A program made the position numbers and the translations under genes. From Humisphaera borealis (GTDB lineage: Bacteria > Planctomycetota > Phycisphaerae > Tepidisphaerales > Tepidisphaeraceae), in contig NZ_CP063458.1 in the NCBI RefSeq assembly GCF_015169395.1, positions 5,208,001-5,272,000 of the forward strand: a stretch of 64,000 nt of DNA, in the 5' to 3' direction. Below are positions 8,301 to 37,090 of the stretch, in pieces; the stretch's first letter is position 1; each line of letters starts with the position of its first letter. The notes under the pieces are model-generated. The model was given only the letters and a program-made list of their open reading frames with translations. It searched no databases and had not been told where the DNA came from.

Positions 8301-8461
8301 GCCCGACCCGTGCCATCACGTTTGGCAACCTGAACGATGCCCACGCCGAAGTGACACAGCAGCACCACAGCAACCGCAGTTACGAGCTGCTGGGCGAACT
8401 GAACAACCGACCACGAACCAAATACCTCGCCAAGCTGCGGAACCCCGCGACGCAGGCGTAA
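5366..8461 (+). CDS. actB: Alternative complex III subunit B, molybdopterin-oxidoreductase-like plus Fe-S domain (ActB)
   Basis: A 1,031-residue periplasmic subunit. A twin-arginine type export signal (SRRSFLKLM, near residue 44, preceding a hydrophobic stretch and a Cys) is followed by a molybdopterin-oxidoreductase-like domain which in ActB proteins does not bind the cofactor. The C-terminal ferredoxin domain starts near residue 783 with [11 protein letters not shown] and continues with [14 protein letters not shown], a CxxxYCxxNC group ([11 protein letters not shown]) and CTYCVQ...CQQTCP, giving the four-cluster pattern of the HybA/NrfC family. It belongs to the quinol-oxidising electron-transfer module between ActC and the ActA/ActE hemes. 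The stop overlaps the actC ATG (TAATG). Confidence 0.93.
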
Positions 8462-9975
8462 TGGCAAAGGCACCGTACGAGACTTTGTCGATCGATATCA
8501 TGGCACGAGACATAGACAACACCGCGGAAGACCCCCGACGCAGAGCGCCACTGGTGCTCGGCGGCCGCGACTTCACTTCGGTCACCGACTGTGTTTGCGC
8601 AGTCGCCGAGCGTCCCACCACGCTCGCTTGGAAGATCGCGTTTGCCGGATCTCTATCGCTCCTGGCTGTGCTGGGTGTTTGCCTGGCGTACCTGATATCG
8701 ACCGGAGTCGGTGTCTGGGGAAACAACCAGCCGGTGGGCTGGGCATTTGATATCGTTAACTTCGTCTTCTGGGTCGGCATCGGCCACGCCGGAACACTGA
8801 TTTCCGCCGTCCTCTTTCTGTTCCGGCAGAACTGGCGGACAGGCATCAACCGTTTCGCCGAGGCGATGACGATTTTTGCCGTCGTCTGCGCCGCGATGTT
8901 TCCTGGGGTGCACGTCGGGCGTGTTTGGCTGGCCTACTGGCTATTCCCGATTCCCAACCAGATGGGCATGTGGCCGAACTTCCGCAGCCCGCTGCTGTGG
9001 GACGTCTTTGCCGTGGGCACCTATGCGACCGTCTCGTTGCTGTTCTGGTACGTGGGACTGATCCCCGATCTGGCAACACTGCGCGACCGCGCTACGTCGC
9101 GCAGCAAGCAATTCCTTTACGGGTTGTTCGCGCTCGGATGGACCGGATCAAGCCGCGCCTGGCACCGGTTTGAGCGAGCCTATCTGTTGCTGGCTGCGCT
9201 CGCGACGCCCCTGGTGCTCTCCGTCCACTCCGTGGTGTCATTCGATTTTGCCACCAGTCAGGTCCCCGGCTGGCACACGACCATCTTCCCGCCGTACTTT
9301 GTTGCCGGGGCGATCTTCGGTGGGTTTGCGATGGTGCTGAACCTGGCGATCCCTGCTCGCGAGCTCTTCGGCCTCAATGACATTATCACCCGCCGCCACA
9401 TCGACAACATGGCCAGGGTGCTTCTGGGCACAGGGCTCATCGTGAGCTACGCATATGCGACCGAGTTCTGGACCGCGTGGTATAGCGCCAACGACGCCGA
9501 GCAGTTTGCATTTCTCAACCGCGCCTTCGGGCCGTTCGCCTGGGCCTTCTGGACGATGATTTTCTGCAACGTAGTTGCCCCCCAGTTCCTCTGGTCCAAG
9601 CGCGTCCGTTCCAACGTCTGGGCGGTCTTCGGTGTCGCGCTGCTGGCCAACATCGGCATGTGGTTCGAGCGATTCGTCATCATCGTAACTTCCCTGGCGC
9701 GGGACCATCTTCCGTCGAGCTGGTGGGGGTTTGTGCCGACCGCTGTTGATCTGCTTACCCTGGCCGGCAGTTTCGGGCTCTTCTTCACCCTGTTCCTGCT
9801 GTTCTGTCGGTATCTGCCGGTCGTCGCAATGGCCGAGGTGAAATCGATCATGCCGCAGGCGCACGGTCACGACCCCGAGCCCTCGACAGAATCTGCCGTC
9901 GCAGGGAGCACCGCGGTGACCATTCATTCCGCCGGTCAGTCGCGCTCAATACCGACAGGAGCGGTAACGGCATGA
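8461..9975 (+). CDS. actC: Alternative complex III subunit C, NrfD/PsrC-like quinol-binding membrane protein (ActC)
   Basis: A 504-residue integral membrane protein of the NrfD family with about ten hydrophobic helices (for example [22 protein letters not shown] and [20 protein letters not shown]). It is one of two quinol-site subunits of alternative complex III. Conserved family segments are visible: [34 protein letters not shown], and TEFWTAWYS. The ATG at 8461 overlaps the actB stop; upstream in-frame sequence lies inside actB and is not used. The stop overlaps actD by four bases (ATGA), so translation is coupled through the operon. Confidence 0.93.
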
Positions 9976-10541
9976 AGAAGACAGCTACAACACCTTCCGG
10001 CGCCGTCGAAGCCCCGAAGGTTATCGGGCTGCTCGCGGAGTTCGCGACCGTGACCGATGTCATCGAGGCCGCGCGGCGCGTTCGCAGCGCCGGCTACAGC
10101 CGATGGGATGTCCATTCACCGTTCCCGATCCATGGAATTGATCCCGTCATGGGAATCCGTCCGACCCGCCTGCCCTGGCTCGTGCTGACAGCCGGGCTGA
10201 TCGGGCTTGTCGGCGGCATCGCACTTCAGTGGTTCGCTAACGCCGAAAGCTACCCGTTTCTCATCAGCGGCAAGCCGATCTGGAGTTTGCCGGCGAATAT
10301 CCCTGTCGCTTTCGAGACCACGATCCTGTGTGCAGCGCTGACGGCCGTCTTTGGCATGCTCGGACTAAATCGGCTGCCGACGCACTACAACCCGCTGTTC
10401 AGGTCGGAACGCTTCCGGCGTGCGACCAGCGATCGCTTCTTCATCCTTGTCGATGCGTCCGACCAGCAGTTTGAAATCCACCGGACCATGCTTCTGTTCA
10501 CCGATGCCGGTGCAATCGCGGTCGAGACGGTGGAAGACTGA
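9972..10541 (+). CDS. actD: Alternative complex III subunit D, DUF3341 protein (ActD)
   Basis: A 189-residue two-helix membrane protein of the DUF3341 family, the ActD subunit. The cytoplasmic N-terminus has the family pattern ([36 protein letters not shown]), followed by two transmembrane helices around residues 60-82 and 105-130 and the closing [13 protein letters not shown] segment. The protein fixes the complex in the membrane; a direct catalytic role is not known. Confidence 0.9.
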
Positions 10542-10587
10542 GGTTGGCGCGAACGTCTGCCTGCCACGCGTTCGTCTTGAGTGAAAC

Positions 10588-11331
10588 ATGGCTCCCATGG
10601 CCGATCCGAACGTCAACATCCCGCTCTACACACACGGCCCGTCGCAGCCTGGCGGCGGTCGGCTGCCGATCGCGATTGTCGTAGGGTTGCTCGCGATCAT
10701 CGCGGCGTTACTGGTGCCGCTTGCGATCTCGGCGCGAGCACGTGTCAGCACGAGCGACGAACCCCGCATCCAGCCGATTCAGGATATGGCGCAGCAGCCC
10801 CGATACGGCCCCCAATCACCCAGCGCGGTCTTCAATGACGGCAGGGCGATGCGATCGCCGGTGAGTGGAACGGTCGCCCGGGGGCGGGCCGATGACGACG
10901 ACCACTACTATCGTGGCTTTCGAACCGTTACCGACGCCAACGGGAACGACACCACCACCTTCCTTGATGGTTTCCCACAACGCGTCACTCTGACCCCCGA
11001 GCTGATCGCCCGTGGTGAACAACGGTTCAACATCTACTGCGCAGCGTGTCACGGCAAGGACGGCTCCGGGAACGGCCCGATCCACCAGCGGGCGTCGGAA
11101 CTTGTCGTACTGCATCAGGCCAATTGGACGCCACCGGCGTATCTGCACAGTGACGTCGTCCGTACCCGCCCCGACGGGCATCTATACAACACGATCAATG
11201 TCGGCATCAGAAACATGCCTGCGCACGGCCCGCAGATTCCCGTCGCCGACCGTTGGGCGATCGTCGCGTGGGTGCGAACGCTGCAACTGCGGCAGAACCC
11301 ACCGACACCGGCCGCGGGCAAGCTTCCATGA
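10588..11331 (+). CDS. actE: Alternative complex III subunit E, monoheme cytochrome c (ActE)
   Basis: A 247-residue membrane-anchored cytochrome c. A hydrophobic anchor (IAIVVGLLAIIAALLVPLAI) precedes a periplasmic domain with one heme site, FNIYCAACHGKDGSG (first Cys at residue 151), and a Met-containing segment with VGIRNMPAHGPQIP that likely supplies the axial Met. It is the electron-exit subunit of the complex toward an oxidase or soluble cytochrome. An alternative ATG three codons downstream is equally possible. The stop overlaps the actF start. Confidence 0.9.
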   Translation: MAPMADPNVNIPLYTHGPSQPGGGRLPIAIVVGLLAIIAALLVPLAISARARVSTSDEPRIQPIQDMAQQPRYGPQSPSAVFNDGRAMRSPVSGTVARGRADDDDHYYRGFRTVTDANGNDTTTFLDGFPQRVTLTPELIARGEQRFNIYCAACHGKDGSGNGPIHQRASELVVLHQANWTPPAYLHSDVVRTRPDGHLYNTINVGIRNMPAHGPQIPVADRWAIVAWVRTLQLRQNPPTPAAGKLP

Positions 11332-12725
11332 ACGGCCCCGATGACTTCTGCGAGGTTGCTCAGCAAGTGAAATCACACACGGTTCAAACTTCTGACATCA
11401 CCCGGCTCGGCCCGGGGTCGGCAAAGCTTGTGCGCGTTGCCGGTGTGATCGGCGTCGTCGGCCTGGGTGCCGCGATCGCGTCGGGGCTGGTATCGGCCGG
11501 CGGATATCGCCGCTTTCTTTTCGCCTACCTTGTCGCGTTCTGCTTCTGCCTGACCATTGCCTTGGGGGCGCTGATCTTCGTCCTGTTGCAACACCTGACG
11601 CGCGCCGGCTGGAGCGTGACCGTGCGCCGACCGGCCGAAGCCATTGCCGCAACGCTTCCCGTGCTCGGACTTCTCTCCCTGCCGATCCTGTTCTCCGTTG
11701 CCTCGGCCGACGGCGCGCTCTATCGATGGGCCTTGCCGGTCGGTCAGGTTGGAGCCGAAGAACCTTCGAGCCACGTTGCCGCGAGCCCCCACAAGTCGCC
11801 GTCGACGACGGCCGGTGAAGCGGTCGTCCGTGCTGCCGACTCCGACCCGGCTCAACTCGCCAAGCCGGTCCTGGATTCCTTGATCCTGAGAAAGCGTGCC
11901 TGGCTGAATCCGGCGTTCTGGATCGTGCGCGTGGTGGGATATTTTGCCATCTGGTCGCTGATCGCCCGTTGGTACAGGGCACAGTCGGCAGTGCAAGATC
12001 GGACCGGCGACGCTGCCGTTTCCACACGCATGCAGTGGTGGGCACCTTTGGCCATCATCGCGACGGGGCTGACCGTGACTCTCGCGGCATTCGACCTGGT
12101 CATGTCGCTTGATCCGCACTGGTACAGCACGATCTTTGGCGTCTACTTCCTCGCGGGATCTTTCGTCGCATCATTTGCGGCGCTGATCGTCGCCGTGTTT
12201 GCGCTGCGGACGGCGGGATTCGTGCGATCGAGCCTGAGCACGGAGCACTTTCACGACCTGGGAAAGTACCTGTTCGCATTCGTCTTTTTCTGGGGCTACA
12301 TCGCGTTCAGCCAGTTCATGCTGCTTTGGTATGCCAATATCCCTGAAGAAACCCGCTGGTTCGCGCGGCACGGCGCGACCACGGTTCAGGCGGATATCTC
12401 CGGATGGTCCTTCGTCATCCTGGCGATTCTGTTCGGACACCTGCTGATTCCCTTTGCGGGGCTCCTGAGCCGGCATATCAAGCGGAGTGTTGGAATCCTG
12501 GTCTTCTGGGCGGTCTGGCTGCTGGCTTTTCACTACCTCGATCTTTACTGGGTCATCCTGCCGGAAGCGGGCGGTGACCTGAATGTTCACCTGGCCGATG
12601 TCGCGGCACTGGTCGGGGTTCTCGGTGTGTTTGTTGCTGCCGCCGTCCGCCTGCTGGCCTGTGAGAACCTGATTCCGACAGCCGATCCGCGACTGCATGA
12701 GGCGCTGGCGTTCCACAACATTTGA
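11328..12725 (+). CDS. actF: Alternative complex III subunit F, second NrfD-like membrane subunit (ActF)
   Basis: A 465-residue polytopic membrane protein related to ActC, described in the family as quinol:cytochrome c oxidoreductase quinone-binding subunit 2. About ten hydrophobic helices are seen; family landmarks are WYRAQSAVQDRTGD, FDLVMSLDPHWYSTIFGVYFLAGSF and FSQFMLLWYANIPEET. I use the ATG overlapping the actE stop (ATGA) rather than the longer in-frame opening, which lies in actE. It completes the act operon A-F. Confidence 0.92.
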   Translation: MNGPDDFCEVAQQVKSHTVQTSDITRLGPGSAKLVRVAGVIGVVGLGAAIASGLVSAGGYRRFLFAYLVAFCFCLTIALGALIFVLLQHLTRAGWSVTVRRPAEAIAATLPVLGLLSLPILFSVASADGALYRWALPVGQVGAEEPSSHVAASPHKSPSTTAGEAVVRAADSDPAQLAKPVLDSLILRKRAWLNPAFWIVRVVGYFAIWSLIARWYRAQSAVQDRTGDAAVSTRMQWWAPLAIIATGLTVTLAAFDLVMSLDPHWYSTIFGVYFLAGSFVASFAALIVAVFALRTAGFVRSSLSTEHFHDLGKYLFAFVFFWGYIAFSQFMLLWYANIPEETRWFARHGATTVQADISGWSFVILAILFGHLLIPFAGLLSRHIKRSVGILVFWAVWLLAFHYLDLYWVILPEAGGDLNVHLADVAALVGVLGVFVAAAVRLLACENLIPTADPRLHEALAFHNI

Positions 12726-12777
12726 GCGAGGTGCGACACGGCACAAGATCGCAGGCTTGTAACGCGTCGGAGAAGAC

Positions 12778-13518
12778 ATGGACCCCATCGAACATAATCT
12801 CGACGACACTCAGCGGGCCGCCGCCGCCAAACCTGCAACGGTCGGGAGCACCACGCGACGCCAGTCGGCGGGTGACATCAGTTCGGCTTTGGTCGTCGGC
12901 ATCGCAGCGGTGGCCGTAATGCTGCTGACCGCAGGCGTGATCGGTGGGCAAGCCTGGATGCGCTGGGGTGAGGTTCGCGCCCGATCCGAAGCCGATGCGT
13001 CGGCACCGGCGAATCGAACCTTGGCCACAGCAGCCAGCTATGAGCAGTCTGCCGATCCGCAGACGTCGCAAGCAATTCAGTTTCTTGTCGCCAACGCCGG
13101 CCGAACAGGTTGGCCGACGACACAGCCGGAACAGATTCAGGCCGCTTCGACCGCGCCGTTGGTCGCCGGCTTGAATAAGGCACGGGTGAAGACCGGCATG
13201 GCGGTTTTCCAGCGGTTCGGGTGCGCAGCCTGCCATACCACCGACGGCCGGGCGGGTGTCGGACCGAGCTTGTTAGATGTCTTCGGCTCGACGGTCGATC
13301 TGTCCACAGGCGCAAGTGTGGTGGCCGACGCCGACTTTATCCGCGAGTCGATCCGCCAGCCCGCGGCCAAGATTCACAGGGGGTATACGCCGGTCATGCC
13401 CGATTTCGGACCGCAGATCAAAGATCGCGAGATTGAAGGCCTGATCGAGTTTCTCAAGAGCATCAGCCCCTCGCCGCAGAGCCGCAAAGAGACGGGTCCT
13501 CTGCAGAACCCGACTTGA
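12778..13518 (+). CDS. Membrane-anchored monoheme cytochrome c, oxidase-subunit-II-like heme domain without CuA
   Basis: A 246-residue protein with one N-terminal helix (SALVVGIAAVAVMLLTAGVIGG) and a C-terminal cytochrome c domain: FGCAACHTTDGRAGVGPSL (first heme Cys at residue 149), then DADFIRESIRQPAAKI and GYTPVMPDFGPQI with the likely axial Met. This heme domain is the type fused to the end of caa3 oxidase subunit II, but the CuA-binding cupredoxin domain is absent; only about 90 unassigned residues lie between helix and heme domain. Placed 52 bases after actF, it probably shuttles electrons from alternative complex III to an oxidase. It could be a stripped-down CoxB or a dedicated cytochrome. 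Confidence 0.75.
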   Translation: MDPIEHNLDDTQRAAAAKPATVGSTTRRQSAGDISSALVVGIAAVAVMLLTAGVIGGQAWMRWGEVRARSEADASAPANRTLATAASYEQSADPQTSQAIQFLVANAGRTGWPTTQPEQIQAASTAPLVAGLNKARVKTGMAVFQRFGCAACHTTDGRAGVGPSLLDVFGSTVDLSTGASVVADADFIRESIRQPAAKIHRGYTPVMPDFGPQIKDREIEGLIEFLKSISPSPQSRKETGPLQNPT

Positions 13519-14762: not shown

Positions 14763-16103
14763 ATGCCGTACATCAGCAAAGTCCAGAAGAAGCGCCGGCA
14801 ACGGATGGCCGTCCCACTAGCGGGGTTAAACGGATCGGCATCGCTGCACGGCAAAGAGAGCATTGCCAACAACCTGCATCTTCCGTCGCCGACGTCAGCG
14901 GAGATCAGCGACAGTCTTCGATTCATGTTCGCTGTTGGCATCGAGTGCTCGAATCCGATCGTTGCCGGCAATCACCGGGTGGACCAGCTCGAGTCCACCG
15001 GTCACTACGAACATTGGAAGAAGGATCTCCATCTCGTACGCGACTTGGGTTTGCGATATCTGCGGTACGGTCCTCCGATCCACCGCATTTTCACGGGGCC
15101 GGGCCAATACCGTTGGGACCTGCTTGATCCTGTGATGGAGGAGATGGCCAGGCTCGGAATACGGCCCATCATCGATTTCGTCCATTTCGGTCTGCCTGAT
15201 TGGCTGCGCGATTTCCAGAACCCCGAGTGGCCGAAGCACGTCGCCGAATACGCTGCGGCGTTTTGTCAAAGGTATCCGTGGGTACGGTTCTTTACGCCGG
15301 TCAACGAAATCTTCGTGACGGCGCAGTTTTCCGCCGCGTTCGGCTGGTGGAACGAGCAGCTCATGAGCGATCAGGCGTTTGTGACGAACATCAAGCATTC
15401 GGTAAAGGCATCAATGCTGGCGATGCGTGAGGTACTGCACCAGCGACCCGACGCGATCTTTATTTTCAGCGAGTCGACTGAATACGTTCACCCGGGTAGT
15501 CCGGCCCAGGTGGAACGGGCGACGTTCCTCAACGAGCGGCGGTTCCTCTCGCTCGATCTACTGTTCGGCCATGACGTTTCAGCGACCATGTATCGCTATT
15601 TGCTCCAGAGCGGCCTGACGCCTGACGAGTACCAGTGGTTTCGCGACCAAACCGACCTGCGCGCCCACTGCATCATGGGAACGGACTACTACATCACCAA
15701 CGAACATGTGCTCCGCGACGACGGAAGCACCATCGGCGCCGGCGACGTCTATGGCTACTACGTCATTACACGCCAGTACTACGACCGATATCGCCTGCCT
15801 GTGATGCACACGGAAACAAACCGAGTCTCCAACCTCGCCGTCGAGTGGCTGTGGAAAGAGTGGATGAACCTGCTTCGCCTGAGGCAGGACGGCGTTCCGA
15901 TTGTCGGTTTCACTTGGTACGGCCTTCTCGACATGAAGGACTGGGACAGCGCTTTGACGAAAGTGCGCGGCCACGTCAACAAGGTCGGCCTCTATACGCT
16001 TGACCGCCGGCCGAGAAAGGTCGCCCGCGAGTATCGGAAACTGGTTGAAAACTTCTCGTCGTTCCCGATCAGCAGCTCCAAGTTCCCGATACTGACCGCG
16101 TAA
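14763..16103 (+). CDS. GH1-like (clan GH-A) glycoside hydrolase family protein
   Basis: A 446-residue protein, no signal peptide, with the TIM-barrel landmarks of family 1 glycosidases: RYGPPIHRIFTGPGQYRWD, IDFVHFGLPDWL, the acid/base region FTPVNEIF (E182) and the nucleophile region VMHTETN (E351), then GFTWYGLLDMKDW. It is a distant GH1 branch in which the usual TxNEP reads TPVNEI. The same family forms the N-terminal half of the fusion encoded at 17754-20456, so the two are likely paralogues acting in one glycan pathway. The first ATG is used, but no good ribosome site is seen and a start up to about 55 codons downstream (FMFAVGIE) is possible. Confidence 0.75.
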   Translation: MPYISKVQKKRRQRMAVPLAGLNGSASLHGKESIANNLHLPSPTSAEISDSLRFMFAVGIECSNPIVAGNHRVDQLESTGHYEHWKKDLHLVRDLGLRYLRYGPPIHRIFTGPGQYRWDLLDPVMEEMARLGIRPIIDFVHFGLPDWLRDFQNPEWPKHVAEYAAAFCQRYPWVRFFTPVNEIFVTAQFSAAFGWWNEQLMSDQAFVTNIKHSVKASMLAMREVLHQRPDAIFIFSESTEYVHPGSPAQVERATFLNERRFLSLDLLFGHDVSATMYRYLLQSGLTPDEYQWFRDQTDLRAHCIMGTDYYITNEHVLRDDGSTIGAGDVYGYYVITRQYYDRYRLPVMHTETNRVSNLAVEWLWKEWMNLLRLRQDGVPIVGFTWYGLLDMKDWDSALTKVRGHVNKVGLYTLDRRPRKVAREYRKLVENFSSFPISSSKFPILTA

Positions 16104-16134: not shown

Positions 16135-17709
16135 TTAGCGCTTCGCCGTCTTCAAAGACTTCTCCGCTGAGGGGCCGACCGTTACGCCGAGTTCCTCTTC
16201 GGAGATGTGCGCCTCGTGTTGATCCCCGAGTTGGTCCGGGTTGGTCTTGGCAGGCCCCGTTGAAACAACCGATCTGCGAGGATCACCCGAGCCGGCGCGG
16301 GGACTACGCTCATGGACGGCGGCGTTACGACCGTCAGTCGTACTGCTGTAGGTCATCCCAATCGTCGTCTCGGGCTCATTGAGCAAAAGTCGATTAACAA
16401 GTTCGACACCCTGCATCAGCGAATGATCGGTATTTGACACTTCATACTTCCACATGCCGAAGCGCCCTCGGCTGTAAATCTGTTGACTCTCCAGGAAAGG
16501 AATCACCTCTGAGAGGATCTCGTCCCGTTCGACGCTTGGCGTCGGGTAACTGTACTTGGCATCGAAAACCCAAGTGTCGACGATATCTTTGCGATCTTCC
16601 TCCTTGATCAGCCCCGCATTGACCAAGCCTTGGATGGTTTCATCGACCACTCGCGTTTCATCCACGGGCTTGAACTCGCTGTAGCTCACCTCGCATAGCA
16701 AGCTGTAATACCTGCTGTTGTCCGGAGTCATATGCGGCGAATAGTTGGACAGATATGTGACCCTGTAGAAGGGGCAGTTGCTCTCGGGAAAGTACATCCA
16801 GCTCTTGGTGCTCGGACACGGCTGCTTAATCCCAATGCCGATCATGTATCCGCCGCTATGTCGCAGCGAAGCAGCAGCCTTCTTGATCTCGCGAGGAACC
16901 TCACCCGTCAGGACGTTGTTGCACAGCTTGTCCAGGGGAATGGTCGAGATCAGCTCGTCGTATGCGACGATCTCGCCGTCCTGGAAGCGAACTTCCTTCC
17001 TCGCCGGGTTGATGACGTCGACGGTCTTGTTGAGATGAACGTGGCCAGCCAGCGGTTTTTCGAACCGGCGGTAAAACTCGCCAGTACCGCCAAAGAGTGG
17101 GAACTTGAACTGATTGTTGGGACCCCAGCCAAAGTCATCCGAGCCGAGCACGACGTTTTTGATCGCCCGGCTGATATCGAGCACCGCGACGCGTTCGCCA
17201 ATCCATTCCTTGTTCATCATCGCCGGCGGATGCGCCCACACCTTGAAGTTGTAAGGCTTCATGAAGTGCTTTGCGATTCCGTCACCAAACACGGCGTCGA
17301 TGAATTCCTCGAAGTTCTTCGCTGCTTTCGGATTGCGACGGGTCTGCGCTTCCACAAGCCCGAGCAGGCACTCAAGGGTCACATCCTTGGGGAGGTAGCG
17401 AATATTGTTCTGAAAGGGATAGGGCACCCAGGTTTCGAACATGCGGACCCAGCATTCGCGCATGTTCAGCTGGCAATCCTTGCCCATCAGCTTGTCGAAT
17501 ACGTCGTCATAGTACTTGTAGTGACTGAACATCACATGGCCGCCGATGTCCCATGTAAAGCCCGCCGAATCCGTGAAACTGCTGGCCAACCCGCCGATGT
17601 AAGGAAGGCGGTCGTAGACTGCAAAGTTCTTATGGCCGAGTTCTTTGAGGCGGTATGCGGCACCCAGCCCGGTGGGGCCCGCTCCGATGATCACGATCTT
17701 CTTTTCCAT
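16135..17709 (-). CDS. FAD-dependent oxidoreductase, UDP-galactopyranose mutase/protoporphyrinogen-oxidase-like
   Basis: A 524-residue flavoprotein. The N-terminal Rossmann motif IIGAGPTGLGAAYRL, the GGLASSF loop and DIGGHVMFSHYKYYD resemble UDP-galactopyranose mutase and related amine-oxidase-fold enzymes; the C-terminal ligand segment reads GMTYSSTTDGRNAAVHERSP. The last 70 residues are a polar tail of unknown role. It is followed on the same strand by nothing, and preceded by the GH1-glycosyltransferase fusion 44 bases away, so the pair is probably co-transcribed. A function in modifying a nucleotide sugar for the neighbouring glycosyltransferases is inference; galactofuranose synthesis is not proven. 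Confidence 0.72.
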   Translation of the reverse strand: MEKKIVIIGAGPTGLGAAYRLKELGHKNFAVYDRLPYIGGLASSFTDSAGFTWDIGGHVMFSHYKYYDDVFDKLMGKDCQLNMRECWVRMFETWVPYPFQNNIRYLPKDVTLECLLGLVEAQTRRNPKAAKNFEEFIDAVFGDGIAKHFMKPYNFKVWAHPPAMMNKEWIGERVAVLDISRAIKNVVLGSDDFGWGPNNQFKFPLFGGTGEFYRRFEKPLAGHVHLNKTVDVINPARKEVRFQDGEIVAYDELISTIPLDKLCNNVLTGEVPREIKKAAASLRHSGGYMIGIGIKQPCPSTKSWMYFPESNCPFYRVTYLSNYSPHMTPDNSRYYSLLCEVSYSEFKPVDETRVVDETIQGLVNAGLIKEEDRKDIVDTWVFDAKYSYPTPSVERDEILSEVIPFLESQQIYSRGRFGMWKYEVSNTDHSLMQGVELVNRLLLNEPETTIGMTYSSTTDGRNAAVHERSPRAGSGDPRRSVVSTGPAKTNPDQLGDQHEAHISEEELGVTVGPSAEKSLKTAKR

Positions 17710-17753: not shown

Positions 17754-20456
17754 TCAGGAGCCTTGGGTTGCCACGTAGCTGAATTCGAGTTCTGCTTCGT
17801 TCAAAGGTGCTACGGGCGTCGCACTGCGACGGTCGTCTGCAGCCAGTGCATCCCGAATCAGCCCCTGCATGTTCGCGACGGTCTGTTCCCAACTGCACTG
17901 TTTCGCCAGCTCAAGGCCGCGTTGCACACGCGGGTCATTCCCCCGCGACCGCAGTGCGTCTTCGATCGCAGCAACGAACTCTGAAGCGCCACTGGCGATG
18001 CGGACAATGTCACTCCATTGGCGGACCACATCACGAACGCCTGTGCCGACAATCGGCTTGCCGGTCGCCATGTACTCAAGTCCCTTGGTCGGGTTGATAA
18101 ATTGAGTGGCGGCGTTGATCGCAAAACACATCATGTTGACGTCAAACGCGCGGCAGTAGTTGGGCAACTGCTGGTAGTCGCGTCCGCCAAGCCAAAACAG
18201 ATTGGGTGCGTGCGGCAGCGTATTCGGATCGACCTTGACGACCGGGCCCACCATTGCAAAAGACCAGTTCGGCCGCATTCGCGCCATTTCTCCGACCATC
18301 GCGTAATCGACGCGCTCGTCCACTACACCGAACCAGCCAATGACCGGCTTGGCCATGAAGTCGATGTCGGGGGGCACTGCGGTCGTCGCGTCGGATGCCT
18401 TGGAAAAGTGCCCGTAGTCCACGCCGCAGCCAAAGGGATGGACGTTCGGATGCTGCTTGCTCTTTTTCTCGCCGAGCTCATAGCCTCCGGTAAAGACGAC
18501 GTCCGCAACTGTCATCAGCCGCGCCTCGTTCTCGACCAACGCCATGGGCGCGCCGGTGAATTGCGAAAGCTCGTCCATGCAGTCGTAAACGATGCCGCGA
18601 TTCTGGAAGTGCCCCAGCGACCACGCCGAATCCATCGGCGAGTAGTACCAAAGAAGCGGCCGGTCAAAGTCACCTCGCTCGTTCATCGCGGCAATCGATT
18701 GCTTGGTGAACTCCCGGAGTATCTGCGGCAGCTTCGGGTTGCGATTCCAACTCGGTGCTACATGTGGTGCAGCCACGGTCACGTTCGGCATGACCTTGTG
18801 CAATTCGACACGCGGCTCTTCGCCTTCCCGGAGATCGAAGAACGGCTCCTCCACAAAAAGGATGCGGTGTTTGCGGGCGAATCGGGACAGGAACTGCTGC
18901 GGCCGCTGCCAGACAAACCCCCACCGGAGGTGGCTGAACACCACGATGCCATACTTGTCGAATGCTTTCGTGTCGCCAAGAGCGTTGGACACTGCACCCG
19001 CCGGTGCAACGCTGGCGGCAACCTCCTGCGGCGTCGTGGAAGGTGCATTGCCGTTACGGGCGGGTGGCGATGCAACGCGGGACGTTCGAGTGGATGTCTC
19101 CGCATTTTCCGTTTTCGACATCGGCGGTTCGATGCCGATCGGCGGTCCCTGGTCAGCTTCGTCCGACGGCTCGCTGATAAAGTCCAGCGTTCCGACCGAA
19201 TCGTCTCCGCCGGCCACGAGTAACCGGTACTGCTCGACCAGCGGACTGGCACTGCGCTTTAGTGTCCCATCGGGTTGACGGCGCAGGTTATAGAGCCCCA
19301 CCTCGTGCACCTTGCCGATACGGTGCGTCAATGCTCCGTCCCAATCGAGCTGGTCGATCAGTGGCCACCAGAAGCAGCCCAGCATCGGGAGGCCCTCAGA
19401 ACGGAGTCGATTGCAGTCTTCGACCACCTGGTCGAGCCATATCTCTCGATTAATCGATTGTCCGTCCGCGCTCGTTTCGGTCAGCATCATCGGCAGCGCA
19501 AATCGGCTGTAGTACGCTTTCGCCGCGCCGTAGAGCCCGACCGGTGTATCGGCCCTGCGCTGACGAATGCCATCGGCGGTGCGTTCCAGTTGCCACTCGC
19601 TGTTCGGGTAGTAGTCCAGCCCGAGCACGTCGGGGCGCTGCGGGTGAGTGCGAAACCACTCAAGATCGATTTCGCTCATCCCGTATGCCGTCACCCACTG
19701 ATGGAGCGGATGGTCGGAGCCGAAGCGACCCGTCAGGAGGTCCATCGCCAGGAACCTTCGCATGTTGCGGCGATCAACTTCTGCCGAGAGCAAGGGGTCA
19801 CGAGTTTTGAAGTTCTCCACGTTGTCGCAAAGCAGAACGGTGGCCTGCGGATCAGCGCGACGAATGGCGCGAATGGCCCGGCTGGTCGCCTGCACGACGC
19901 GACTGAGCAGCGGCATATAGCCGCGCCACTTTCGCGAGTGCGGTGGCCAAAAACCAAAGTCGCCGCTGAAGAGCGCCAGGATCAGCGGCTCATTGCAGGG
20001 GGACCACGTATGTATCACGCTTCGGTAGCGCTCAACCAACGCCGTCGTGAAGCGTTCCAGGCTTTCCGGGAACTCAGGATCGCCGGCCGCTTGCCGCAGC
20101 CAAGTCGGCGTCCCAAAGTGCATGACGTCGAGGTAGAGTTCGAGTCCCAACTCGGCCGCAAATGCCACACGTTCATCGGCAGCTGACCAATTGAATCGAC
20201 CGGGCTGGACTTCGATTTCATGCCACGGCAGGGCATACCGAAGGGCGGAGACGCCGACCTCGTCCCTGGCCCGACGAAAATCCTCTTTCCAAAACCGGTT
20301 ATGCTGCGTCCATTCGAACTGATCGACTTCCAGATGAGGAATGAACGAACACTCGATTCCCGCTCCCCAAATGAACGTTTTCGACGCAGCCGCTGTTGGC
20401 GGCTTTGTTACGTTACGGGGCGAAGCAATCTGAAATCCTGTAGCTGTCGAAGACAT
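17754..20456 (-). CDS. Bifunctional fusion: GH1-like domain plus GT-B glycosyltransferase
   Basis: A 900-residue protein with two domains. Residues about 15-440 form a GH1-like barrel with acid/base SPCNEPLI (E156), nucleophile MLTETSADG (E327) and FWWPLIDQLDWDGALTH. A Ser/Thr/Pro/Ala-rich linker (about 445-500) leads to a glycosyltransferase domain (about 505-890) starting VVFSHLRWGFVWQRPQQFL, with YDCMDELSQF, GWFGVVDERVDY and the sugar-nucleotide site FINPTKGLEYMATGKPIVG. I chose the ATG at 20456 because GGAAGGA lies six bases upstream; the frame is open 43 codons further but that extension is unlike coding sequence. Its neighbours are a UGM-like flavoprotein and the NdvB-like synthase, suggesting one exopolysaccharide or glucan pathway. 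Confidence 0.8.
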   Translation of the reverse strand: MSSTATGFQIASPRNVTKPPTAAASKTFIWGAGIECSFIPHLEVDQFEWTQHNRFWKEDFRRARDEVGVSALRYALPWHEIEVQPGRFNWSAADERVAFAAELGLELYLDVMHFGTPTWLRQAAGDPEFPESLERFTTALVERYRSVIHTWSPCNEPLILALFSGDFGFWPPHSRKWRGYMPLLSRVVQATSRAIRAIRRADPQATVLLCDNVENFKTRDPLLSAEVDRRNMRRFLAMDLLTGRFGSDHPLHQWVTAYGMSEIDLEWFRTHPQRPDVLGLDYYPNSEWQLERTADGIRQRRADTPVGLYGAAKAYYSRFALPMMLTETSADGQSINREIWLDQVVEDCNRLRSEGLPMLGCFWWPLIDQLDWDGALTHRIGKVHEVGLYNLRRQPDGTLKRSASPLVEQYRLLVAGGDDSVGTLDFISEPSDEADQGPPIGIEPPMSKTENAETSTRTSRVASPPARNGNAPSTTPQEVAASVAPAGAVSNALGDTKAFDKYGIVVFSHLRWGFVWQRPQQFLSRFARKHRILFVEEPFFDLREGEEPRVELHKVMPNVTVAAPHVAPSWNRNPKLPQILREFTKQSIAAMNERGDFDRPLLWYYSPMDSAWSLGHFQNRGIVYDCMDELSQFTGAPMALVENEARLMTVADVVFTGGYELGEKKSKQHPNVHPFGCGVDYGHFSKASDATTAVPPDIDFMAKPVIGWFGVVDERVDYAMVGEMARMRPNWSFAMVGPVVKVDPNTLPHAPNLFWLGGRDYQQLPNYCRAFDVNMMCFAINAATQFINPTKGLEYMATGKPIVGTGVRDVVRQWSDIVRIASGASEFVAAIEDALRSRGNDPRVQRGLELAKQCSWEQTVANMQGLIRDALAADDRRSATPVAPLNEAELEFSYVATQGS

Positions 20457-20947: not shown

Positions 20948-23900
20948 CTACGTTGGCGTTGAGGCTTTCGGTGCTTCCTCGGTTTCGGCCCGATCGGACG
21001 GCAGCACGATTTCAACGTGATGTTCCCTGCCGTCATTAGCGAGTGTGAGTAAGGGTTCAGCTTGCTCGCGTGCGTCCACCAAAACGCGAGTGAAATCGGT
21101 TGTGAGATCCGACCGGACTGTCACGTGATACACTGAATCTCGGTATCGATAATGGACCTTGAAGGACGTCCACGAGTGTGGCATTTTCGGCACGACCTTG
21201 AGCCTGTCGCCTTCCAGCGTGATTCCCAGGAGCGATTCGGTGATCAGTCGATACATCCAGCCCGCCGAACCGGTGTACCACGTCCAGCCACCTCGCCCCA
21301 CATGCGGGGCAACACCATAGACATCCGCTGCGATGACGTACGGCTCGACCTTATACCTCGCGATTCCCGCCTCGGTCGCACCATGATTGACCGGGTTAAT
21401 GATCGAGAATAGTTCCCACGCCCGCTCCGAGTCGCCCATCGCGGCGAACGCCATCACGGTCCAGATCGCGGCGTGCGTGTACTGCCCGCCGTTTTCGCGA
21501 ACACCCGGAACGTAACCCTTGATGTAGCCGGGATTGAGCGACGATTTGTCGAACGGCGGATCGAACAGGCGAATCTGTCGGTCGTCGGCGCGGACCAGCC
21601 GTTGGTCGACGCTCTTCATCGCGATCTGCGACCGCTCGCGCGTGCCCGCGCCCGACAGCACCGACCAGCTTTGCGGCAGCGCATCGATCTGACACTCTTC
21701 GTTGGTCGAAGATCCCAGCGGCGTGCCGTCGTCGAAGTAGGCGCGACGGTACCACTGCCCGTCCCAGGCGTTCCCTTCGATGTGCCCGCGCAGGCGGCCA
21801 GCCTCTACGGTGTAGCGATCGGCAAGGCCGAAATCGCCCCGACGGCGGGCCAGATCGGTGAATTGGTTCAGCACGTCGAACAGGAAGAACGCCAGCCAGA
21901 CGCTTTCGCCCTTGCCGTGCTGGCCGACAAGGTTCATGCCGTCGTTCCAGTCGCCGCAGCCCATGAGTGGCAGACCATGGCTGCCGAAGCGAAGGCCGTT
22001 GTCGATGGCGCGAACGCAGTGTTCGTACAGGGAAGCGCTGCCGCCGACGCCCGGCAGGTCGTAGAACGATTCTTCGTCGGCCCGCAGAAGTCGGGCGTTC
22101 AGGAACGGTGCCTGCTCGTCGAGGACGGCAGTGTCTCCCGTAACCGACACGTAACGGCAGGCGGCGTACGGAAGCCAGAGGTAGTCGTCGGAGAAGTGCG
22201 TGCGGACGCCGCGTCCAACTGGAGGGTGCCACCAGTGCTGAACGTCGCCTTCGGCGAACTGCCGGCCTGCCGCGCGCAGAAGATGTTCCCGGAACAACCC
22301 CGGCTCGGCGTGAACAAGGGCCATCGCGTCCTGCAATTGATCGCGGAAGCCGAATGCACCACCGGACTGGTAGAACCCGGTCCGCGCCCACATGCGGCAG
22401 GCGAGCGTCTGGTAGATGAGCCAGCCGTTGGCCAGGAAGTTGACCGAAGGGTCGGGCGTCTCAACGTGGACCGCGCCCAGCGTATGGCTCCAGTAGTGCC
22501 AGACGCCTTCCAGGGCACGATGCGCATTGGCAATGCCGCGGAACCGGTGGATCAGGTGCCGGGCCTGTTCCTCGTCGTGGCCGACGCCCAGGGTGAAGAT
22601 GATCTCCTTCGTATGGCCGTCATCGAGCGCGAACGGAACCTGGATCGCCGCGCAGGGGTCGAGGCCGGCGCCGAGCCTGCCCGACAGGCGGACCCTGCGC
22701 AATGCGGCGGGGGAGGCGGGCCGGCCGTTGCGACCCAAGAACTCGGTCCGGTCGGCGGTCACACTGCGGTCAGTCTCGCTGCAGTCGACGAATGCGATCC
22801 GGCCGGGGAACTCGGTGTTGTAGGCATTGCGGGAGAACAGCGCACCGGTGGCCGGGTCTGACTCGGTCAGCACGTGCATGAGCGACTTGTCGCGCAGCTC
22901 GCCGAGCACCCACTCCCAGTACGCGGTCGCGGAGAACTGCCGCGCCCGACCCGAGCGGTTGGTCACGCGCAGCTTCGCAAACTTCACCGGAGCGTCGGTC
23001 GCGACATAGACACATAGCTCGCTGGAGATGCCGTCCTCTTCGTACTCGAAAATGCTGTAGCCGAAACCGTGCCGGATGACGTACGGCATGTGCCCGCGGG
23101 CCGGCAGCGGCGACGGCGACCAAAACCGGCCGCTCTCTTCGTCCCGAAGGTAGAACGCCTCGCCGCTGACGTCCGACACCGGATCGTTGTACCAGGGGGT
23201 GATGCGGAACTCGTGGCTGTTTTCAGCCCAGGTGTATGCGCCGCCGCTCTCGGAGATCACCGTTCCGAAGTGCGGATTGGCGATGACATTGACCCACGGC
23301 GCCGGCGTGGTCTGGCCCGGGCGAAGCACGGTGATGTACTCGCGTCCGTCCTTGCTGAACCCGCCGAGCCCATTAAAGAACATCAGTTCACTATCGGGGA
23401 CTTCCGTCGCGACCGGCGGCTCGGGCTTGCGTCGCACGGGCATGAAGGGGGGGATCGCAACTTCGGCCCGGCCGCGCCGCTCGACCTGCTCGGCCAGGGT
23501 GCCGGCATCGTCCAGCAGGACCACTCGCGCCACGGTCTGAAGCAGCGCGCGATCCTCTTCCGACATCTGCTCGCCACGACGGACGAAGATGCCGCCGGGC
23601 TTGTCGACCATCGCGGCCTCGGGGCTGGCGGCGACGAGATTCATGATCGCGTCCTGCGAGGTCTGGCGGTAGACGGAGTCGTCCTCGTTCCAGATCACCA
23701 GGTCGACCGCAAGTCCCTTCATCCGCCAGTAGGCGTGAGCCTGCACCGCCTGGCGGACCAGTTCGATTCGCGTGATGTCGCGAATGCGCACGAGCACGAT
23801 CGGCAGATCGCCGGAGATGCCATAGCCCCAGAGCCCTGACTGCCCGCGCCGGTTGCGCGTCAGCACGGCGGCCTTGGCACGGCGGAGCGACGACGCATAT

Positions 23901-26900
23901 ATCACCGATCCGGCGAGCCGTCCGAACGACTGCGCGTCGGCCTCGGTGATGTTCAACTGCCGCAGCAACACGTGGGCATGGGTCCATGCCAGTTCGAACA
24001 CACGATCGGCCAGGCGCGGATCGTGGTACTTGTCCATCATCGCGGTGGCGGCGTCGCGCGTTTCGGCGACGCCGGTCACCAGGTCGATCCGCACCGTTTC
24101 GCCGGGGGAGAGGCGTACCACCTGGCGGATGCTCATCACCGGGTCGAGGACGGATCCCTCGCTGTTGGTAAGCGGCGCGACGCCTTCCATCGCCGCCGGC
24201 GCGGCGACCGTCCGGCCACGGCCGATGAACTTCATGCGATCCGTCTCGAACGACACCTCGCCCGAAACGGTCCCCTGCACCGTCATCAGGTGTGTCATCC
24301 AAGGTGGCTTTTCCTCCGCCGATCGCGGCCGACGCGTGCACAGGATTGCCTGGCGGTCGCGAACGAGTTCGGTCTGCACAAACAGGTTGCTGAATGCCGG
24401 GTGAGCCAGGTCCTGCGACCGCGCGGCAAGCACGACCTCGGCGTAGCTGGTGACCTCGATCGTTCGGACGGAATCGGACCGGTTGATCAGCGTCACGCGC
24501 CGCAACTCGATATCGTCCTCGGGCGATACGCTGATTTCGCTGTGCGTCTCGATGCCGTCGTCGCGACGGCGAAACTCCGCCCGGGCCTGCGTGAAGATCG
24601 CTTCGTAGTTGCGCGACGGTTTGAGCGTCGGCTGCCATGACGTCGACCAGAGCAAACCCGACTCCAGATCGCGCAGGTAGCAGAAGGTGCCCCAGGCATC
24701 GCGGGTCGCGTCTTCGCGCCAGCGGGTGACGGCCGTGTCGCGCCAGCGACTGTAACCGCCGCCGGCACTGGTGATCGCGACGTGGTAGCGGCCGTTGGAT
24801 AGCAGATGCACTTCCGGCGCGGCACCGCCGACGTCGGTGAAGACGCGCATCGTGCCTTCATCCTCCGCCGATGCCGTATGGCGTGTGCCCGCCTCGGCGG
24901 CATGGGGGAAGGCGAGAGCCGATGCCTTGGGGATACGCTCCTGCAGCAACAGATCCGCCGCTCGAAGCATGGGGTCGGATTCAAACCGTCGCTGCATCGG
25001 CTTGTCGAGCAGCACATACGCGATCGACAGGAGGCTCATACCCTGGTGGTGAGCCATGAATTGCCGAACCGTGACGCTGGTGGCGCCGGGCGTCAGTCGT
25101 GACGGCGTGTAGTCGATCGCCTCGTAGAAGCCGTAGTCTCCCTGTTGGCCGTCGGCGTCGAGTCGTTCGAGATTGCGGCACGCCGCCTCCGGCGCCACCA
25201 TGAGCGCCATCGCGGTCGCGTACGGGGCGATGACCAGGTCGTCGGCCAGGCCGCGTTTCAGTCCCAGTCCCGGCACGCCGAACGCGCGGTACTGGTAGGT
25301 CAGGTGCTGGTCGGTGGTGTTGTAGCCCGATTCCGAGATACCCCACGGCACGCCGCGCTGCTTCCCGTAACGAATCTGCCGCCCGACGACCGCCTTGTAG
25401 GTCTGGTCGAGCAGCGTGTTGTCGTACGTCGGCATGACCAGCAGGGGCATGAGAAACTCGAACATCGAGCCGCTCCAGCTCAGCAGCGCCGGCACGGCGC
25501 CCGTCGCTGTGAGTAGACGGCCGAGGGCGAACCAGTGTTGCTGGCCTACCTGTCCCTGTGCGATGGCAACGAAGCTGCCCAACCGTGCCTCGGACGCCAG
25601 CAGGTCGTAGTACCCGCCGTCGAGCCGCTGGTCGGTAACGTTGTATCCGATGGAAAACAGGTCGCGCGACGAGTCGTACAGAAACGACACGTCCATGTCG
25701 GCCAGATCCTGGCACTGCTCGGCGATGTCCTGCAGCGCCCTGATGCGGCTGGTCGCATGGTGCGACGACGTAGCGACGGCACGGCGGAGTTCGTCCAGCG
25801 CGGCGACCATCGCGTTATCGCCTTCGGATGCCTGCACGGCCGAATCAATCAGCGGCACCAGGACGGCCGGCAGTCGGGCCACCTCTCCCAGGCTCAGCCC
25901 GGCATCAAGCCGGCCCAGGGCTTCGTGCAGCTTGTGCAGGGGGGCCGGCGCCGCATCGCCCGCCGGAATGATTGCCGGCAGGGCGGCCCAGGCGGCCGCG
26001 TGCAGAAGGTCGGTGTGATGGTCGGCGCACGACCGCTCGAAGGCATCGACCCACCAGCGGGTTTCGCCGATCTGTCCGACGGCGTCGGCGATGTCCGAGG
26101 CGGACGCCTGCAGTCGGGACAGCAGCGCCAGCGAGGCACGCAGCGTGGTCGGTGCCTTGCCCAGCTCGGCGTCGATGCGTTCAAGCCGGCGCAGCACGTC
26201 GCCAGTGACCGCAACTTGCTGCGCCGCTGCCGCCGGCGGGTAAACGCCGCGGGCCGAATCGAGCAGTACGCGTATTGTGTCGCGCAACCCACCGAAGATG
26301 CGGGGCGGCAGCACCGGCGCATCGGCAATCTCCAGCAAGCCCCGGCGGAGCACCAGCAGATGCCCGGCAAGATTTCCACTGTCGACCATCGATACATACG
26401 CCGGCGACAAGGGCCGAAGCGATCGCGTGTCGTACCAGTTGTAGAAGTGCCCGCGATATCGCTCCATCCGGCCGAGCGTGGAGAAGGTCTTTTCCGTGCG
26501 GTCGAGCAGCCGGGCGACCGAGCAGTAGCCGAAGTCGTACGCGGCAAGGTCGGCGAGCAGTCCCATGCCGATGTTGGTCGGGCTGGTGCGCGGGGCTACG
26601 ACCGCCGTCGGGTGCTCCTGAAAGTTGTCGGGCGCGAGCCAGTTGCTGTCTGCCGTGACGAACGTTTCGAAGTACCGCCAGGTGCGCCGGCCGACCTTTT
26701 CCAGGAAGCCGCGCTGCTCGTCGGTCAGACGGACCGGTGTCGGCCGGATCGGACGGCTGAGCCACCAGGCGACAATCGGCGATACAACCCAGAGGTACAG
26801 CACCGGCCCGGCGATGAGTAGCATGTCCGGGCGGAGCAGGGCGAGAACCGTCGCGGTGATGATCGCCAGCGCCGGCGCGAAGCCCATCGACCGGAAGAAG

Positions 26901-29779
26901 CCGATCAGGTCTGTCCGGGCGCTGCGCTGGGCATCGCTCGAGGTCTTCCATTCCAGGAGGTTCCGCCGCGTCCAGAGCATGCGGACGGCCGTCCGCGCCA
27001 CCGCGTCGATGCTGATCCAGGCGTCATACGGGAGGAAGACGAGCGAGAACAGGAGCTGGGCCAACTGCTTGCCGAAGCCGCGCGCGGTCAGCCGCAAATG
27101 GGCGATGAGCGGCACATCGGACGGCTTGCGGACCATCGCGTGCAAAGTCGAAAGCACGCCCCCGGCCATGATCGCCGCCAGTACCAGCGCGGTAGCCGCC
27201 AGGGCAGCCTGCGGGGCGGCCAGCCACGACAACAGCAACAGCACGAGCATGGCGACGGGAACCAGGCTCCGCCGCAGGTTGTCGAAGATCTTCCACCATG
27301 ACAGGGCCGAGACCGGGTTGGGCACCTTGCCGGATTTGCCGGAAGGCACCCGGGGCATCAGCCAGCCGGCGATCTGCCAGTCGCCGCGAATCCAGCGGTG
27401 TCGCCGACTCACATCTGCCGGGTAGCGCGTCGGGTAGGCCTCGTAGAGTTCGACATCGCTCAGCAAGGCCGAGCGGGCGTAGGCGCTTTCGAGCAGGTCG
27501 TGGCTCAGGATCGCATTCTCGGGGAAGTCGCCGCAGCTCTGCTCGAACGCGTCGATGTCGTAGATCCCCTTGCCGATGAACGAGCCTTCGCCGAAGCCGT
27601 CCTGGTACAGGTCGGAGACGACGCGGGTGTAGGGATCGATGCCGGTCTCGCCGGCGAACAGTCGGACGAACCAGCTTCCCTGCGCGTCGGGCAGGCTGAC
27701 GCCGACCCGGGGCTGGAGAATGGCGTAGCCTTCGACGACACGGCCCCGCGCCGGGTCGAACACCGGCCGGTTCAGCGGATGCGCCATCGCGCCGGTCATC
27801 TGCCGGGCCGAATCGCGCGGAAGCTGAGTGTCGGTATCCAGCGTGATCACGTACCGCACGTCGGCAAGCCGCGCGATATCGCCGACGATGCGCGAGAATC
27901 GGTCGGCCGGCGGGGACGCGCCTTGGCGCTGGGCGCGCAGCAGGGCGTTCAGCTCGGCGAGCTTGCCGCGCTTCCGCTCGTAGCCCATCCAGACGCCTTC
28001 CTGCTCGTTCCAACGGCGCGGCCGGTGGAAGAGAAAGAAGATGTCCGTCCGGGTGTCCTCGTACTTTCGATTGAGCTGCTCGATCCCGTCGACCGCCCGC
28101 TTCAGCAACGCTTCGTCGCCGGGCCGGGTCTCGGTGGCGGCGTCTTCATAGTCGGTGAGCAGGCCGAAGTGCAGGTTCTCGTCGCGGTTGGCGAGATATC
28201 GCACCTCCAGGCCGTCCAGCAGATCGTCGATCGCGTCGGCGCTCGATAGCATCGTCGGCACGACCACGAGCGCACGGTGCGTCGCCGGAATGCCCTTGCG
28301 AAAGTCGAGCTTCGGAAGCGGCCTGGCATCGACCAGCACGCTGGCGCACCAGTTAACGACGCCGATGCCCAGGTGCGCCGCGCACATCGCTGCGGCGACA
28401 CCCAGCAGCGTGGCCGTCACGACGCCGACGCCCGATGCCAGCACGACTGCGACAAAGCCGGCCGTCGCCGCCGCGGCGATGACGGTCACCGGCACCAGAT
28501 AGAACGCCAGCGGGAAGCTCGCTGCGACGCTTGCCGCGACCTTGCGGACGGAGCGACGCATGCCGGCGGCGCGTTCGAGCGTGCGGCGGCCTTTGCCGAT
28601 CAGGTAATAGCCGACGTGCGACGCAGGCCCGCCTTGCTGGCCGCCGGCCTCGGCGTCGGCAAGCCCGATCGCCCGGCGAGCCACTTCCTGCTCGGGTTGC
28701 CTGCTGTGGCGGGCGATTTCTTCCACGCCATGGCGATAGCGGTCGCGGGTAGCGAACTCCATGCTGCTGTAAACGCCGGCCGGATCGCCTTGCAGCGTCT
28801 TTTCGACCACGCTGTGCCGTTCGACGAAGTCGCGCCAGTCGGTCGAACTGAGAAAACGCAGACTGGTGATGCTGTTGCCGATCGACACCTGGTCGGCCGC
28901 CTGCGCGTTGGCGTCGGCGCGGACGAGTTGCTCGATTGTCTGCCCCTGTTCCGACAGTCGCTGTTCGAGCCACCCAGTCGCAAAACCGAAGTACGGACTC
29001 TGCCCCTGCAGATGGCGCGTCAGTTCGGCGAGGAACGCGCCGGTCAAAGGCGGATCGGCCCGGGCCATGTCGGCCAGCACGAGGATCAGGTTGGTCGGGG
29101 CCCGCTCGACCACGCTCACCATGCGCTCGGCCCAGTCGATCGCCGAATCGCGATCGCGCCGCGTCGAGCTGATCCGTACCGCCACCCGGCGAAGGTTCTC
29201 AATCAGCGCCAGCCGCAGCACGATCGGCACGGCCCAGAGCTCGCCGAGCTTCAACGGCTGTACGGTCTGGTACGACGCGACGAAAGCATCCAGGCTGACG
29301 GCATCGAGCCGGCCGTCCACGTGGGAGATCAGTTCAAGGGCAATCGCATAGACCCGCGGCAACGTCGCGTTGGAGCCCCGAGCGAGGCGCGGTAGTTCGC
29401 GGCCGTAGGACCGCGGCAGATGCCGCCTGGCCGTGCGAATCTGTTCTTCAATGAGGTAGAAGTTGTCGAGCAGCCACTCGGCGGCCGGCGAAATCCGCCG
29501 GTCGGCGGCGACGGCGGCCGTCAGCAGATCGTACGTCTGGACCAGCACATGTTCGTTGTCGTGCAGACGACCGATGAGCTTGTCTGGAGCGCCTGAGGTC
29601 GCCAATTCGTGCGATTCGGCAAGCCGGCGGGCGTGGTGCTGCAACTGGTCGACGCTGAACAACTCCGACCGCAGCGGCGCTTCTTCGCCCGTCAACGGTG
29701 ATCGCGGTGCGACGAAGGTCGACCGCTTCCAGAACGAAAGTTGCTGCAGGCCTTTGGTGATTCCGGGAACGTTCAACAA
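20948..29779 (-). CDS. Cyclic beta-glucan synthase homologue (NdvB/ChvB type: GT84 + glucoamylase-like + GH94)
   Basis: A 2,943-residue membrane protein with the whole architecture of NdvB/ChvB cyclic beta-1,2-glucan synthases. A cytosolic N-terminal domain ([22 protein letters not shown]) precedes two helices at about 426-478. The GT84 domain has the DTDTQLP metal motif near 648 and [11 protein letters not shown] near 798, followed by helices at about 840-880, 906-933 and 963-1010. A glucoamylase-like domain ([14 protein letters not shown] near 1480) comes next, then the GH94 phosphorylase-like repeats with [15 protein letters not shown] and catalytic [10 protein letters not shown] near 2610, which set glucan length. 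In this family UDP-glucose is polymerised and cyclised for export. Linkage in this organism is inference. The gene is intact, though so long. Confidence 0.9.
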
Positions 29780-32095: not shown

Positions 32096-32187
32096 CGTTC
32101 CGATTTGCCTGTCCGCGGTACCGGCCGACGCCGCCCGCACTGAGAGATTCACTTTTGGCACCTGTCTGAATGAAAGGAACTGGAACC

Positions 32188-33279: not shown

Positions 33280-33408
33280 GGGTCGCAATATCGAGCCGTT
33301 TCCTCCCTTCCCACGAAAGCCGGGAGGCGGGCCAGGCCGTCGGGGGCACAGCCGTACCGTGCCATTTGAAAGACCGACACCAGCCCGCTTCCCGGCGACG
33401 GTGAATTC

Positions 33409-34290: not shown

Positions 34291-34360
34291 CCTGGTGAAT
34301 CAGTGACCGGCGGCGGGGTGCTACTGCCTTTGCCACGAATTGTTCCCCTGCAATCGCGAT

Positions 34361-35743: not shown

Positions 35744-35826
35744 GCCAGACGGCGAAACACGGGAGGCCCCGTGCAGCCGCCTGATACACGAAGCGCCGAA
35801 CGCCGCGGTCCTTGCAGAATCAGCTT

Positions 35827-36918: not shown

Positions 36919-36996
36919 GTCAGGACGGGCATCGGTCCGGGCGCCAATCCCGGATCGATAGCTCTTCCAGGTACCAAGAAACTCAATTTAGTGGCG

Positions 36997-37077
36997 GAAA
37001 CCACCAAGGTCTCGTCGACCGGTGAAGTTGCCGCCAGCCGGCGCCATCGCGCCACAGGGAGGTGGCTTCAAGCCACC
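36997..37077 (+). promoter_or_regulatory. Structured leader before the porin gene
   Basis: The 172-base gap between cysA and the porin holds three elements that can pair in two ways. GGTGGC (37061-37066) and GCCACC (37072-37077) form a hairpin that ends five bases before the AAGGAG ribosome site. Alternatively GGTGGCTTC (37061-37069) can pair with GAAACCACC (36997-37005) at eight of nine positions, which would free GCCACC. An upstream TCCGGG...CCCGGA hairpin (about 36936-36954) may end the cysA transcript. Mutually exclusive pairing next to a ribosome site is what a translational switch looks like, but no known riboswitch class was recognised. Confidence 0.35.
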
Positions 37078-37090
37078 CAAGGAGATCCAG

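Follow-up and report, generated by a model that had tools for sequence, protein, structure and literature searches.

A putative cytosolic galactofuranose cassette with a GH1-glycosyltransferase fusion and a eukaryotic-type mutase in Humisphaera borealis

We propose that a gene group on contig NZ_CP063458.1 of Humisphaera borealis encodes a compact cytosolic galactofuranose (Galf) cassette, composed of a UDP-galactopyranose mutase (UGM), a glycosyltransferase (GT), a GH1 barrel tethered to that transferase and a second GH1 protein with an accessory role, a reading that we hold to be probable. Coordinates refer to the window, by which we mean the whole 64,000-nucleotide stretch analysed (positions 5,208,001 to 5,272,000 of the contig).

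The fusion protein (900 residues; 17754-20456, minus strand) is encoded by a frame of 900 open codons, with an ATG start codon and GGAAGGA immediately 5' of it. Pfam recognizes Glyco_hydro_1 at residues 66-288 (44.3 bits, reaching the cut-off of 22.6) and Glyco_trans_1_4 at residues 721-836, the latter slightly below its cut-off (26.0 bits against 27). In an AlphaFold model of the full-length protein, for which 29 related proteins served as input (mean pLDDT 84.9), two confident domains, a GH1 barrel at residues 25-419 (19200-20384, minus strand) and a GT-B domain at residues 497-880 (17817-18968, minus strand), flank a low-confidence segment at residues 423-496 (18969-19190, minus strand; pLDDT below 50), and the model suggests that this interdomain linker of about 75 residues is probably disordered. 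Equal in-frame fusions with 56-73% identity are present in five other genomes, those of L003, L004, L005 and L007 belonging to Phycisphaerae and that of L006 to a Lentisphaerae genome, which rules out a frameshift or assembly artefact as the origin of the fusion. Open frame, domain matches, model and relatives thus all agree with the original prediction that a single protein combines a GH1 barrel with a separate GT-B transferase.

Superposition of the model on solved GH1 enzymes (VIA-align) identifies the N-terminal domain as a GH1-type (beta/alpha)8 barrel, with a Z score of 41.3 and an rmsd of 2.4 over 378 aligned residues relative to the T. maritima beta-glucosidase TmGH1 (1od0/2j7h; values for 2j7h). 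The two share the barrel fold and both catalytic glutamates, which in the fused domain are the acid/base E156 in a CNEP motif (19989-19991) and the nucleophile E327 in an LTETS motif (19476-19478), but are only about 20% identical, and the cassette GH1 differs further in having no signal peptide and in being joined to a GT or, at other loci, to an RmlD-type reductase. In GH1 enzymes the glutamate of the NFEW motif is a sugar contact; in the fused domain it is replaced by D371, and relatives mostly carry Asp or Gly at this position, so that the preferred sugar may not be that of ordinary GH1 glucosidases, while the family assignment is independent of this residue. This substitution, together with the overall divergence of the domain (identity of about 16-21% to GH1 enzymes of solved structure), could be taken to mean that the barrel is a non-catalytic scaffold or an acceptor-binding module for the transferase. 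We regard this as quite unlikely, however, as all 68 of the GH1 domains aligned, which come from related loci in many phyla, keep both catalytic glutamates, and R73, H113, N155, Y283 and R318 are likewise invariant across the set. The catalytic pair already noticed by the original prediction is therefore real, the structural model gives no sign of a lost catalytic pocket, and the barrel looks like an intact retaining beta-glycosidase.

The adjacent flavoprotein (524 residues; 16135-17709, minus strand) is encoded by a gene that begins 44 bp downstream of the fusion, and the two genes are probably co-transcribed; a scan for promoters and terminators returned sites no more numerous than in shuffles. 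In phmmer comparisons the protein matches T. cruzi UGM (4dsg) over residues 3-451 with an E value of 1e-123, and A. fumigatus UGM (3ute) with an E value of about 1e-108 and identity at 193 of 453 residues (43%). Active-site mapping, based on the FAD and UDP-Galp contacts listed in PMC3624792 plus Y334 and the G61- and V64-type neighbours of H63, shows 20 of 22 positions identical to the A. fumigatus enzyme, the exceptions being G456 and Q458; among those kept are the equivalents of R182, R327, Y317, Y419, Y453, N207, W167 and H63. By contrast with this full-length homology, the eukaryotic and bacterial UGM classes share 14-18% identity and have been set against each other as eukaryotic versus prokaryotic (PMC3624792), and the profile of the bacterial class, PF03275 (GLF), finds no match in this protein or anywhere in the genome. 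What had been described as a nucleotide-sugar-type, UGM-like flavoenzyme can accordingly be named more sharply: its sequence marks it as a putative eukaryotic-type UGM. It is distinguished from the T. cruzi and A. fumigatus enzymes by its bacterial host and by its place in a cassette that elsewhere mostly carries the bacterial class. Four genomes from the taxonomic class of H. borealis (L107-L110) encode mutases 63-64% identical to it and have no GT homologue at the threshold used. More distant homologues are carried by Streptomyces plasmids, on one of which (L123:2765-4186, 36% identity) the gene lies near one annotated for natural-product biosynthesis. In the single plasmid record inspected no cassette GT stands alongside, so that this mutase class also occurs outside the cassette.

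Genome contigs queried with the fusion yielded 79 loci with transferase homologues, in 68 of which a mutase of either the bacterial (60 loci) or the eukaryotic class (8 loci) is located no more than 4 kb from the GT, mostly adjoining it or fused to it; since the mutase was absent from the query, this linkage is unselected. Both a mutase and a GH1, the latter within 5 kb, are found at 54 of the 79 loci, a figure to be read with the caution that the query contained both the GH1 and GT domains and so inflated their co-occurrence. Of the 11 loci with no mutase within 4 kb, three (L009, L010 and L012) reach a contig edge at most 0.8 kb from the GT. In four of the five genomes that share the window-type fusion (L003, L004, L005 and L007) the mutase lies directly downstream of it. 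More widely, a GT with a bacterial mutase and either a GH1 or a GH1-RmlD fusion occurs in Cyanobacteria, Bacteroidota, Pseudomonadota, Verrucomicrobiota and myxobacteria, and GT-mutase fusions, 25 in the set of GTs counted, are found for instance in Cyanobacteria and sphingomonads. The Gemmatimonadota loci L008 and L011 combine a GH1, a GT, a GH1-RmlD fusion and a eukaryotic-type mutase (class checked for the L008 mutase), and single polypeptides join GH1, GT and eukaryotic-type mutase in a member of the Methylococcaceae (L019:9845-13783, 1312 residues) and in Pantoea (L096:10834-14589, 1251 residues). Other genomes of the Planctomycetota show both kinds of partner: the GT is accompanied by a eukaryotic-type mutase in G217, G275, G316 and G382, a pairing that thus extends to other families of the phylum, and by a bacterial one in G221 and G232.

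In a tree built quickly from 92 GT domains, the partner mutase changes class at least four times. GH1-GT fusions occupy two separate places on it: one is the clade of the H. borealis protein, the other contains L019, L040 and L096. Between L019 and L040 the GH1 domains share 54% identity, and their identity to stand-alone GH1s from a different subfamily is 40-50%, against only about 24% to a window-type GH1, so that the two fusions look independent. In annotated plasmids the cassettes mostly stand alone, and a setting within large exopolysaccharide clusters was rejected for this reason. At a Sinorhizobium meliloti locus, a 758-residue protein encoded downstream of a GT-mutase fusion (L095:17528-19804) combines a GT4 domain with a weak GH1-like match, and is possibly a GT-GH1 fusion in reversed order; the intervening gene encodes joined GT, Gfo/Idh and Zn-dehydrogenase domains.

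The GT domain modelled alone (pLDDT 93.9, pTM 0.90) adopts the two-Rossmann GT-B fold, with Z scores of 24-32 against the 50 matches listed, GT-B transferases and synthases throughout. The closest folds are GT4-type enzymes, many of them users of UDP-sugars, led by sucrose-phosphate synthase (Z 32.1) and MshA (31.5) and followed by HepE and BshA, so that this group as a whole scores 28-32. Despite the shared fold, the domain is only 10-15% identical to these enzymes and differs from them in its linkage to a mutase. It may also differ in the EX7E motif, where our reading of the alignment finds the second glutamate invariant (E299 of the domain) and Phe as the consensus at the first position. 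Neither phmmer nor a profile search finds a solved sequence relative, and the profile of TuaH, a protein of teichuronic acid synthesis (NF047676), matches weakly and distantly (85.8 bits, cut-off 550), and for these reasons we infer both donor and acceptor indirectly. For the donor, gene linkage points to UDP-Galf as the likely substrate, and the strongest evidence is that two mutase classes so dissimilar alternate beside one GT family. One could instead suppose that the GT takes an ordinary UDP-sugar and that the mutase belongs to another pathway, in line with the use of UDP-GlcNAc, UDP-Glc and other donors by the nearest folds and with the loci at which a GT has no mutase nearby; the 25 GT-mutase fusions and the same alternation of mutase classes make this alternative unlikely in our view. 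The domain is accordingly designated here a proposed galactofuranosyltransferase, on the combined basis of domain model, fold matches and mutase linkage.

The remaining member is a second GH1 protein (446 residues; 14763-16103; Pfam 51.1 bits) with catalytic glutamates in NEI and TET motifs, whose gene is the only one of the four on the plus strand and is convergent with that of the mutase, the fusion, mutase and NdvB-like genes all being on the minus strand. The original prediction spoke of a second copy of the barrel; a GH1 neighbour is indeed there, but at only 33% identity to the fused domain it is a copy in a loose sense. Its orthologues adjoin the fusion in the same convergent arrangement in L003 and L006, and in L008, L010, L011 and L012 the GT gene is immediately preceded by a homologue. 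In a hydropathy test, which we used for signal-peptide calls in place of a trained predictor, no hydrophobic N-terminus was seen in the fusion, the mutase or the second GH1, nor in any of the 56 GH1 proteins of the set with a barrel starting near the N-terminus. Fusions of the GH1 to an RmlD-type reductase, a nucleotide-binding enzyme of a cytosolic kind, also recur across many genomes. The lack of a signal peptide and the joining to a transferase or a nucleotide-binding reductase argue for action in the cytosol and against the trimming of a secreted glycan. As far as sequence can tell, the GH1 therefore probably acts in the cytosol, and a role in trimming an extracellular glycan is unlikely.

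These data bear directly on the proposal of the original prediction that four genes, including an NdvB-like cyclic glucan synthase homologue, may together make and trim a single extracellular glycan. Spelled out, the NdvB-like enzyme would lay down a cyclic beta-1,2-glucan backbone for the other proteins to decorate and trim. The homologue itself is present (20948-29779, minus strand): it has GH94 domains and a glycoamylase domain above the Pfam cut-off, Glyco_trans_2_3 slightly below it, and hydrophobic segments by hydropathy, and thus the membrane transferase, glycoamylase-like and GH94 regions of the NdvB domain set, as in the NdvB/ChvB cyclic beta-1,2-glucan synthases. Its gene is the next on the same strand and is conserved in the genomes of relatives, as the proposal would have it. 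Against this, a gap of 491 bp separates it from the fusion, the flanking regions of the 79 loci contain no homologue, and all five fusion-carrying relatives have it on another contig, away from the fusion; the L003 genome, for instance, has it on a contig of 83.8 kb and the fusion on one of 37.8 kb. The adjacency is thus not conserved, and we exclude the gene, single-copy in H. borealis, from the cassette as what is best read as an ordinary, unrelated neighbour. The fusion, mutase and second GH1 do stay together in relatives, so that three of the four genes survive as a set, and NdvB does not. Given further that the GH1s have no signal peptides, extracellular trimming does not hold up, and we consider the four-gene glycan very improbable.

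Returning to the cytosolic Galf cassette, a three-step route can be envisaged. The eukaryotic-type mutase would convert UDP-galactopyranose to the rare sugar nucleotide UDP-galactofuranose, a step well supported by homology. The GT-B domain would then, as gene linkage suggests, move Galf from UDP-Galf onto a cytosolic or inner-leaflet acceptor, for example a small molecule or a lipid-linked sugar. The tethered GH1 may work on this acceptor or on the product, most likely by taking off a wrong or temporary beta-sugar or by shifting one through transglycosylation, with the flexible linker presumably holding the GH1 and GT active sites together and the second GH1 acting as an accessory. In Gloeothece and Methylomagnum, galT and galK, together with genes for GH2 enzymes, lie close to the cassette, as would suit the provision of UDP-galactose. 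They might also be read as signs of salvage, in which the GH1 cuts imported galactosides or galactofuranosides, the sugar enters the Leloir pathway, and mutase and GT recycle it. Such a role seems improbable to us: GT and mutase form a biosynthetic pair, galT and galK were not found at the remaining annotated loci examined, and where present they could equally provide UDP-Gal for synthesis.

In its broadest form the proposal is that a widespread cytosolic line makes a Galf glycoside, with a retaining GH1 as a dedicated biosynthetic rather than digestive step and with the mutase class exchanged several times; we put this forward tentatively, as a possibility short of an even chance. The cassette occurs in Cyanobacteria, Bacteroidota, Pseudomonadota, Verrucomicrobiota, Gemmatimonadota, Deinococcota and Planctomycetota, a spread that points to a common Galf compound. 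To our knowledge, known bacterial Galf products are few, and the product of this cassette appears to be undescribed. A literature search by title and abstract, largely outside the subscription journals, found no paper on the cassette, on such a GH1-GT fusion or on eukaryotic-type mutases in such loci. Each domain is of a known fold and family; that no description turned up of their combination, of the cassette or of the exchange of mutase class is weak evidence of novelty. Among bacterial Galf loci, Kingella pamABCDE likewise has a mutase gene beside transferase genes for a Galf-containing surface polymer, but there the predicted Galf transferases are GT111 and GT2 and the five genes include no GH1 (PMC12269835). 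The argument for the donor sugar that comes from the exchange of mutase class is a genetic one, and ready-made constructs exist in the natural GH1-GT, GT-mutase and GH1-GT-mutase fusions. Galactofuranose is not found in humans, and work on its enzymes treats them as potential drug targets (PMC3624792, PMC3308961).

Other parts of the window hold further gene groups. Upstream of the cassette, 5366-13518 carries an Alternative complex III-type cluster with a fused molybdopterin-like/Fe-S protein, ActD and two cytochrome c proteins. A sulfate-type ABC importer (binding protein, two permeases and a CysA-like ATPase) followed by a Porin_O_P protein occupies 32170-38437, and 38747-43105 encodes 1452 residues that include ten passenger-associated transport repeats and probably form a large autotransporter-like or surface protein.
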